DNA from: Bradyrhizobium sp.
GTDB taxonomy: Bacteria > Pseudomonadota > Alphaproteobacteria > Rhizobiales > Xanthobacteraceae
Assembly: GCF_030693485.1 (NCBI RefSeq)
Contig: NZ_JAUYAN010000256.1
Location: 1 to 45,548, forward strand
Length of the DNA: 45,548 nucleotides
Direction of reading: 5' to 3'
Shown here piece after piece: positions 26,990-45,548 of the stretch. The position numbers and the translations under genes were made by a program. Below the pieces are notes generated by a model, which was given only the letters and a program-made list of their open reading frames with translations, was not told the DNA's origin and did not search any database. Numbering within the stretch: the stretch's first letter is position 1; each line of letters opens with the position of its first letter.

Positions 26990-27510
26990 ATTTTTGGTTT
27001 GGGACGGCGCCCACCTTCGGAAACCCGCGACAAACGACCCGACGGGCAAATCACTTCCGATTATCGGAATTCGTGTCAAGCCCATCGCAAGAAAATATTT
27101 TGCTTAACACGTCGGGCAAATCACCTTTAGTAATTCGTCCGTCTCACCCGATGAGAGGGGCGATCGCGATCGTCACGAACGCGCGTTGGGATGCGGTGGA
27201 CGCGGCAGTTGCGACTGACGAGCGCAACTTGAGCGGACGGTGAAGACGCGTGGTTCCGACACCCCAAGGCTGGTGTCAAGTTCGCGGGTAGCAAAACTCC
27301 CCGGGGGCGACGGCGGCAAAAGTGCAGGGCTCGCCGAGGAGATCGCGGGATAATCCGTAAACCACTGCGCAGGGAAGGCCGGATGCCTCCGCTGGACCTG
27401 TATGCTCGTGTGCGCATTTACTCGTACTTTTTGCACACGAGACCGCGGGTGCAGCGTGCACCCGGTCTTCCCTGCGCCCTCTTTCCTGTCGAGGGCGGCA
27501 AATGACGCAA
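26990..27510. repeat. Long dispersed structured repeat (copy 1)
   Basis: A roughly 0.5-kb intergenic repeat of a type I remember from many Bradyrhizobium genomes. The right third (27367-27477) folds into a long outer stem, GCGCAGGGAAG/CTTCCCTGCGC, extended inward with one mismatch, enclosing the hairpin CTCGTGTGC/GCACACGAG. A truncated copy in opposite orientation is at 45330-45548. The frames read across it look like shadows. The element is not shown to be a transposon: no transposase is present. Confidence 0.75.
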
Positions 27511-27570
27511 TGCTCGGGCGACATGCGCCGCGAGATCGCGAAGGCGTGTCTGATGCAAGCGAAATCTCAT

Positions 27571-29197: not shown

Positions 29198-29319
29198 CGT
29201 CATTGCGGGCCAACGGGTCGGCGCTAAGCGCCGCCCGATGACAGGCTCCGCGAAGCAATCCATATATCCGCGCAAAGAAAGCATGGATTACTTCGTCGCA
29301 AGAGCTCCTCGCAATGACG
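29198..29319. repeat. Palindromic intergenic repeat (CGTCATTGCG type, copy 1)
   Basis: CGTCATTGCG on the left is matched by CGCAATGACG on the right. The interior contains GAAGCAATCCAT and its inverse, and GGCGCTAAGCGCC. The element at 45127-45247 is an inverted copy with the same sub-blocks. Confidence 0.85.
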
Positions 29320-45126: not shown

Positions 45127-45247
45127 ACGTCATTGCGAGCGGAAGCGAAGCAATCCATTTTGCAACGGTGCCGGTGGTGAGATGGATTGCTTCGCGGAGC
45201 CTGTCATCGGGCGGCGCTTCGCGCCGACCCGTTGGCTCGCAATGACG
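45127..45247. repeat. Palindromic intergenic repeat (CGTCATTGCG type, copy 2)
   Basis: Starts CGTCATTGCG and ends CGCAATGACG; contains GAAGCAATCCAT, its inverse ATGGATTGCTTC, and GGCGGCGCTTCGCGCC. It is an inverted copy of the element at 29198-29319 and supplies the upstream ATG in the DUF3754 reading frame. Confidence 0.85.
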
Positions 45248-45329
45248 TGGAGGGAGTTGCAATTCATTGTGGACACCGGATACACGTCCGCGTTCTCGCG
45301 GCATGATTTGCCCGAGGTTTGAATATCGT

Positions 45330-45548
45330 TCTCCCTCAACGAGGGAGCAGGGAATGCCGGATGCGCGCTGCACCCGCGGTCTCGTGTGCAAATGGGTAGA
45401 AAAAACCGCACACGAGCATACAGGGCAGCGGAGAACATCCGACATTCCCTGCGCAATGGCTTGACGGCTTATCACGTGCTCACCTCGGAGAATTCCGGCC
45501 TTTGTCGCCTCCGTCGCCCCGCGGAAACCGGCACTGCGGCCCGGTCGG
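45330..45548. repeat. Long dispersed structured repeat (copy 2, inverted, cut by window end)
   Basis: Inverted relative to 26990-27510. It keeps the hairpin stem CTCGTGTGC/GCACACGAG and an outer stem GCAGGGAATG/CATTCCCTGC (45347-45356 with 45443-45452) extended inward by CGGATG/CATCCG. Similarity continues to the window edge (for example CGCGGGGCGACGG on the other strand). The frames across it are not convincing genes. Confidence 0.75.

Follow-up and report, generated by a model that had tools for sequence, protein, structure and literature searches.

The window, i.e., the whole stretch of 45,548 nt of a Bradyrhizobium sp. contig that was analyzed, contains two inverted copies of a repeat. 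Copy 1 is located at 27367–27477 on the plus strand and copy 2 at 45345–45454 on the minus strand, and BLAST revealed 82% identity of copy 2 to copy 1 over positions 7–145 of the 161-base query (E 8e-29). A preliminary description had claimed that the two copies differ by changes that preserve base pairing, and direct reading of the sequence verified this. Inside GCAGGGAA, three successive stem pairs are G-C, G-T, and C-G in copy 1 and T-A, G-C, and T-G in copy 2, the latter read on the minus strand, and an A-C mismatch in copy 1 is an A-T pair in copy 2. The 9-bp stem CTCGTGTGC/GCACACGAG is the same in both copies, and the loops it closes are unlike, with lengths of 19 nt (copy 1) and 18 nt (copy 2). 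The competing GGGTGC/GCACCC hairpin that had been proposed for copy 1 was found at 27446–27464. The suggested check with a covariance model was run with copies of other genomes (model R2); it recovered copy 1 with 103 bits and copy 2 with 91 bits, both on the expected strands, and the scores on the opposite strands were far lower (38 and 28 bits, respectively).

The limits given for the feature did not hold. The 111 bp turned out to be only a core, and the unit to which they belong measures about 0.4 kb, about four times more than had been noted; in addition to the core, it comprises a 5′ domain (27134–27200), a long-range domain (27233–27363), and two further 3′ hairpins. The full unit of copy 1 extends from about 27134 to 27545, plus a promoter-side segment, and its sequence conservation fades past about 27545; around the hairpin, the conserved stretch reaches from about −400 to +150. 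The following features were found:

27035–27133, plus strand: promoter-side segment of copy 1 with the palindrome half-sites GGGCAAATCA and AAAATATTTTGCTT; conserved upstream of copies
27134–27200, plus strand: 5′ domain, with an outer stem, GAGGGGCG, a GATCGTC loop, and then GCGGTGG; model R3, 62.8 bits, E 3e-12 (copy 1 is not a row of this model)
27233–27363, plus strand: long-range-closed domain (ACGG...CCGT, CGCG...CGCG) with the inner hairpins GACACC/GGTGTC and CGGCG...CGCCG; alignment A2, covarying pairs 219-321, 234-247, and 288-306
27367–27477, plus strand: core rod of copy 1 with outer stem P1, side hairpins, and central hairpin; model R2, 103.1 bits, E 4.8e-22 over 27365–27492
27405–27441, plus strand: central 9-bp hairpin P4 with a variable loop of 19 nt; 100% of cells paired and 4 pairs changed on both sides in alignment A3
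27405–27413 with 27433–27441, plus strand: stem CTCGTGTGC/GCACACGAG of copy 1, read from the sequence
27446–27464, plus strand: hairpin B (GGGTGC/GCACCC), alternative to inner P1; 94.8% of cells paired, 2 pairs changed on both sides
27477–27495, plus strand: first 3′ hairpin, CCCTC...GAGGG, read from the sequence; position conserved among copies
27512–27534, plus strand: second 3′ hairpin, CTCGGGCG...CGCCGCGAG, read from the sequence; conserved among copies
45274–45548, minus strand: part of copy 2 inside the window, comprising the 3′ hairpins, the core, and a portion of the long-range domain; 91% identity to positions 135–412 of the 561-base L010 query
45330–45456, minus strand: core of copy 2 with the first 3′ hairpin; model R2, 90.8 bits, E 3.2e-19
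45381–45389 with 45408–45416: stem CTCGTGTGC/GCACACGAG of copy 2, read from the sequence

Copy 2 runs off the contig end, beyond which the 5′ domain and the promoter side would be expected. The promoter-side segment 27035–27133 of copy 1 is the place where the copies of other genera carry −35/−10 elements. Half-sites of the type TGATTTGCCCGACGGGCAAATCA, present at 27035–27125 and upstream of Bradyrhizobium copies, adjoin many copies and are possibly an operator or a separate repeat. Pairs of CGTC-type REPs (CGTCATTGCGAG...) are present in the window at 29198–29308 and 45128–45246, and one of them adjoins copy 2. A sequence containing GCTGTTTGA follows the last hairpin at the loci L183, L184, L186, L188, L189, L191, and L193 (fullest form GGCTGTTTGAnAATCGAATC) and is partially present in L175 and L180; it is reminiscent of the boxA of rRNA antitermination.

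Collection of copies and alignments

A scan of GTDB contigs with the hairpin pattern yielded at least 117 loci; 99 represented the element, and 18 without it were dropped. The 99 listed element loci were mostly labelled Bradyrhizobium, with few from Rhodopseudomonas, Afipia, and other MAGs. The full-length set consisted of 61 rows, i.e., the 56 of the 99 loci with the 5′ anchor plus five of the six own-genome copies tried (L022 lacked the anchor), and alignment A1 contained 59 of them. The core alignment A3 comprised 55 of the 64 listed cores, corresponding to 54 distinct rows, and its 55 rows, exclusively copies of other genomes, made up model R2. The 5′ domain was recognized in 40 of 52 loci tried, and 37 of these 40, including L283, formed alignment A4. 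Model R1 was used for searching only because it has just 25 bp and its alignment misplaces the Afipia and Rhodopseudomonas rows. Paralogous rows are not fully independent. Two copies, L087 from a MAG labelled Reyranella and the copy of genome G691, are closely Bradyrhizobium-like, which suggests binning contamination; in the alignment rows, L087 matches the own-genome copy L003.

Conservation of the fold

Compensatory changes, which had been expected to be in excess over background, were found when many copies were compared. A tree-aware covariation analysis of the 61 full-length copies with 40 simulations along the tree yielded 24 column pairs at E<0.05, eight in the predicted fold and 16 outside of it. 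The four strongest pairs were all in the fold, namely 351-442 in the outer core stem, 234-247 and 288-306 in the inner hairpins, and 219-321 in the long-range stem (columns of the 609-column alignment). In these four pairs, compensatory changes thus exceeded those due to phylogeny under the tree-simulated null, with E-values that are somewhat too good because the simulated alignments contained 4815 changes, compared to 5271 observed.

In alignment A3 (54 distinct rows), 93.3% of the stem cells were paired, compared to 86.0% in shuffled and 32–57% in slid controls, and 144 cells were changed on both sides, compared to 46 in the shuffles; both values were beyond all 500 shuffles. No excess was observed for the number of doubly changed pairs (12 versus 10.3, reached by 32 of the 500 shuffles) and for further pair types (33 versus 31.4, reached by 116 of the 500 shuffles). 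The individual stems of A3 did not yield uniform results. Paired cells amounted to 99.5% in the outer stem P1 and to 100% in the central stem P4, with four doubly changed pairs in each; the constancy of P4 in rows fetched with the hairpin pattern exists because they were selected that way. Stem P3 was poorly kept, with only 58% of the cells paired. P4 varies as a whole stem, with the types CTCGTGTGC/GCACACGAG, CTGCTGTGC/GCGCAGCAG, and CTCATGCGC/GCGCATGGG.

Two possible folds had been proposed for copy 1 and turned out to be a property of the whole family. The inner 5′ strand of the outer stem has two possible partners: it can pair with the 3′ strand, or it can fold back locally as hairpin A, and 93.7% of the hairpin A cells were paired. 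In an alternative fold with a P1 of 16 bp, 99.2% of the P1 cells were paired, and therefore, both conformations are possible family-wide.

Strand specificity

The preliminary description had left open whether selection acts on a folded RNA or on a cruciform DNA. A cruciform should tolerate G-T and A-C alike, and this was not what was observed. In the A3 stem cells, 134 G-U and 25 A-C combinations were counted (90 versus 3 excluding P3). The full-length set had 340 G-U versus 131 A-C over the whole Watson-Crick-only fold and 76 versus 13 in the 44 best-kept pairs. C-to-T (9.7%) and G-to-A (8.8%) were alike in unpaired columns, and thus, the G-U excess is not mutational. The prevalence of G-U over A-C in stems, together with the lack of such a bias in unpaired columns, argues that selection acts on one strand as RNA and not on a DNA cruciform. 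With RNAalifold, the 61 full-length copies yielded −274.6 kcal/mol for the plus strand and −235.5 kcal/mol for the minus strand. Better folding than in shuffled sequences was seen for the minus strand, too (z −3.15 versus −4.16), as expected of any palindrome. Selection on a folded RNA is thus supported by paired and doubly changed cells above shuffles and slid controls, by tree-aware covariation that peaks in the fold, and by non-Watson-Crick pairs that are mostly G-U on one strand, and a pure DNA cruciform was rejected because of the strand asymmetry.

The same results bear on the explanation that the unit is a palindromic DNA repeat of the REP, BIME, or MITE kind that is spread by a transposase, so that the DNA hairpin would be the substrate and any RNA would be incidental. 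A surplus of G-U over A-C is not predicted for a DNA hairpin, and the covarying long-range stems, which lie outside the palindrome, also speak against it.

Promoter-like sequences and neighbouring genes

The 40 copies with a recognized 5′ domain were scored for promoters. The best −35/−10 pair had on average 3.15 mismatches, compared to 4.80 in shuffled sequences, and a match with at most three mismatches was present in 22 of the 40 copies, although its place was not the same in all of them. Outside the genus, 19 of the 26 scored copies carry a sequence of the sigma70 promoter type, TTGAC(A/G/T)-N16-18 followed by a −10 box such as TATATT, which ends about 6–9 nt before the 5′ stem, and the other seven have no promoter match at this fixed place. 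The kept spacing in these 19 copies is a further point against a mere DNA repeat. A good promoter match was found in none of the 14 scored Bradyrhizobium-type copies, none of which had fewer than four mismatches. Copy 1 is outside the 40 scored copies, and by eye, no promoter was seen for it. The consensus of the full-length copies, mostly of the Bradyrhizobium type, contains a box similar to TATAAC, and its conserved upstream sequence is a different one. Judged from these motifs, the unit of many relatives resembles a transcription unit of its own.

The two competing folds and the 3′ hairpins would also suit a cis-acting leader or trailer of the neighbouring genes, i.e., an attenuator, a terminator, or an mRNA stabilizer, and Br-REP elements have been found in 3′-UTRs (PMC5082802). 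A cis-acting role is nevertheless very unlikely, because promoter-like sequence lies upstream of the unit in many relatives, the downstream reading frames are in either orientation at the 15 loci inspected, and the few scanned neighbours differ: no Pfam family was common to the 10 neighbour proteins of five low-copy loci.

Coding potential and relation to known elements

Each of the six reading frames is stop-free in only 3 to 12 of the 61 copies, the lengths of the unit and the loops are not restricted to multiples of three, and a consistent three-base or third-position pattern was absent from the 61 copies. In agreement with the earlier claim that selection does not act on protein frames, a protein gene was ruled out by the stops, the unconstrained lengths, and the lack of a three-base pattern. 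One annotation would favor a small protein gene, degenerate or real: in a plasmid copy from Bradyrhizobium (L344, NZ_CP100605.1 324542–325645), a "hypothetical protein" is annotated across the 5′ domain, on the strand opposite to it. The rarity of stop-free frames and the unconstrained lengths and third positions render this explanation extremely improbable.

An Rfam search of the window yielded no match, and searches with seven and four element loci (E up to 1 and 5, respectively) yielded few listed matches, all off the element. A known Rfam family was rejected as no Rfam 15 match lay on the element. Large bacterial ncRNA classes such as HEARO, GOLLD, OLE, and ROOL comprise hundreds of nucleotides and have complex folds, and some are multicopy and element-borne; the unit differs from classes of this kind in that no Rfam 15 family matches it. 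RIME and other rhizobial intergenic mosaic elements are mosaic repeats of Rhizobiales that measure about 100 bp and contain large palindromes. RIMEs are not known to be constrained at the RNA level. A published account of the present unit was not found among titles and abstract openings.

GTAG and CGTC REPs have been described in Bradyrhizobium and Rhodopseudomonas strains (PMC3733652). They resemble the unit in being dispersed, intergenic, and palindromic and in occurring in these two genera, and both G-T pairs and alternative complementary residues in their stems have been noted. They differ in that they are single palindromes of 20–40 bp, whereas the unit has about 0.4–0.55 kb, long-range RNA structure, and promoter-like sequence in many relatives. 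In addition, the unit is not associated with Y1 (RAYT) in 32 genomes and lacks a terminal GTAG/CGTC tag. Throughout the rows of A1 and A3, its core stem starts with GCG (GTG in one A1 row), and the CGTC-type REPs are neighbours distinct from the unit.

In B. japonicum USDA 110, Br-REP1 and Br-REP2 are described as stem-loop repeats with cDNA reads (PMC5082802), and Br-REP2 is reported there to lie inside a larger repeat that is also present in Nitrobacter, Oligotropha, and Afipia. Like the unit, they are stem-loop repeats of Bradyrhizobium and Rhodopseudomonas. Even when up to 4 and 10 mismatches were allowed, neither published consensus was found in any of the 61 full-length copies, and identity with Br-REP1/2 was thus rejected. 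The unit may overlap with the flanking palindromes of Br-REP1 or the larger Br-REP2 repeat.

Distribution and movement of copies

In the own genome, BLAST found 27 places with the 161-base query, one being the reverse strand of copy 1 itself, and 43 places with the 561-base query, a number of which match only a REP at the 3′ end of the query. Many of the places lie near contig ends, and their number shows that the repeat is no coincidence. The closed genomes G109 and G022 contain 21 and 17 distinct places, respectively, counted from model matches; the match counts for these two genomes and for the family scan with model R1 include opposite-strand double matches of the palindrome. Model R1 matched in 41 of 119 genomes and 15 of 41 genera of the family, own genome included, with the best 31 candidates at most considered per genome. 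At the level of the order, model R2 matched in 12 of 249 genomes, 10 of them in the family. Outside the family, G290 (E 1.6e-11) has a locus with both the 5′ domain and the core, and G246 has a weak match (E 0.0017). The three R2 matches among 289 genomes of the class were the own genome, the probable contaminant G691, and G636 (weak, E 0.008).

The 5′ domain model R3 matched in 19 of 249 genomes of the order, nine of them outside the family. One of the nine, G290, provides a row of the model, and its match holds by construction because A4 includes L283; the other eight had one to four weak matches each with E of about 9e-5 to 8e-3. At R3 loci outside the family, TTGACA-N17-TATATT precedes the stem in L324 and a TATACT box in L321 and L322, while L325 resembles coding sequence. 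Nine of the 28 genomes in the family of G373 had a match at E up to 0.01. As a lead from these model matches, this RNA class may have an older origin in the order and have expanded in some genera.

The araC-mcd gap of the window has 1014 bp. Among the matches listed, 28 of 29 related loci have a gap of 119–309 bp without the element (59 of 60 genomes matched), and the nearest relative (L245) has a promoter-side remnant only. The occupied gap also contains REP arrays, which obscure any clean junction or target-site duplication of the kind that, with terminal inverted repeats, marks a MITE. Judged by the comparison of such loci, copies are gained at new sites. For other copies, there is some inheritance of position: both flanks are common to the copies L183 and L187. 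In four genera, a copy lies 1.8–3.8 kb downstream of groEL (L179, truncated; L180; L182; L188), with groES/groEL identified by eye from translations, and this position may be an old one. In G094, six copies have a nearly identical core including the loop and diverged flanks, which points to gene conversion or a recent spread of the core. The many-copy genome G024 (genus g24; L284, L294, L303) contains a divergent subfamily with a number of copies at contig ends, suggesting a burst there.

For potential mobility proteins, 32 genomes, 15 with and 17 without the element, were picked by hand from the R1 family scan. The Y1 transposase (PF01797) was found in five of the 15 and five of the 17 genomes, and reverse transcriptase (PF00078) in four of the 15 and seven of the 17. 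No Y1 transposase match was found in the many-copy genomes G000, G109, G024, and G062, and no reverse transcriptase in G000, G024, and G062. Dependence on RAYT or, as for a SINE-like retroposon, on reverse transcriptase was thus rejected for lack of co-occurrence in these 32 genomes. Phage carriage was also rejected, as one Bradyrhizobium copy had no match in phage records and one hairpin pattern had no exact match in viral contigs. The window copy did not match any plasmid, and a plasmid search with a Rhodopseudomonas copy yielded one match over 14% of the query.

Some of these results are what a transposase-spread DNA repeat would produce: the copies are dispersed, intergenic where examined, and located beside CGTC-type and other REPs, they contain long inverted repeats, and they are present or lost at araC-mcd depending on the genome; the REPs of related strains (PMC3733652) provide a precedent. 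The lack of a Y1 transposase match in the four many-copy genomes adds to the counterevidence from pairing and promoters, and we consider this explanation unlikely. Slightly more doubtful is a selfish non-autonomous element that needs its RNA for spreading, as a guide, a reverse-transcription template, or an assembly scaffold, and the structure of which is selected for copying. The high copy number together with RNA-level constraint, the homogenized cores of G094, the lineage-specific presence at araC-mcd, and the lack of a family common to the 10 neighbour proteins would all fit. However, copying includes the segment that precedes the presumed start and therefore takes place at the DNA level; moreover, neither reverse transcriptase nor Y1 transposase tracks the element.

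Discussion

We propose that the unit is a member of a gene family, with many copies in related soil bacteria, that encodes a structured non-coding RNA of some 400–550 nt. With transcription and function inferred from sequence comparison, we assign this reading a probability of roughly 0.6. An intact unit consists of a promoter-side segment, a 5′ stem-loop with a conserved GAUCGUC-type loop, a long-range-closed domain, a rod of about 110 nt, and 3′ hairpins. The rod can re-pair between one long stem and two side hairpins. The unit would be transcribed alone from its own promoter, and the mutually exclusive folds would act as a conformational switch. The RNA would act in trans, and its most likely role would be that of a folded scaffold to which a protein binds. 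New copies would arise not through reverse transcription but through duplication at the DNA level that includes the adjacent REP arrays, with gene conversion as a subsequent step.

A more far-reaching and tentative version, which we regard as possible at low odds, is that a class of large structured RNAs in Hyphomicrobiales has become a dispersed RNA gene that propagates itself, the fold being kept for the spread of the element or for a chromosome-wide role. If this was true, bacteria would possess a counterpart of short interspersed RNA-gene repeats, one that does without both RAYT and reverse transcriptase.

Dispersed repeats in bacteria are generally interpreted as short palindromes of DNA, whereas the repeat described here looks like a long RNA gene. 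In a genus that is central to nitrogen-fixing symbiosis, compensatory changes appear to maintain its structure while the positions that it occupies turn over. The competing folds, the GAUCGUC-type loop, and the homogenized cores offer handles on a binding protein, a switch, and multiplication without a visible transposase. If the copies are transcribed, about twenty of them per genome would represent a substantial amount of unannotated RNA.
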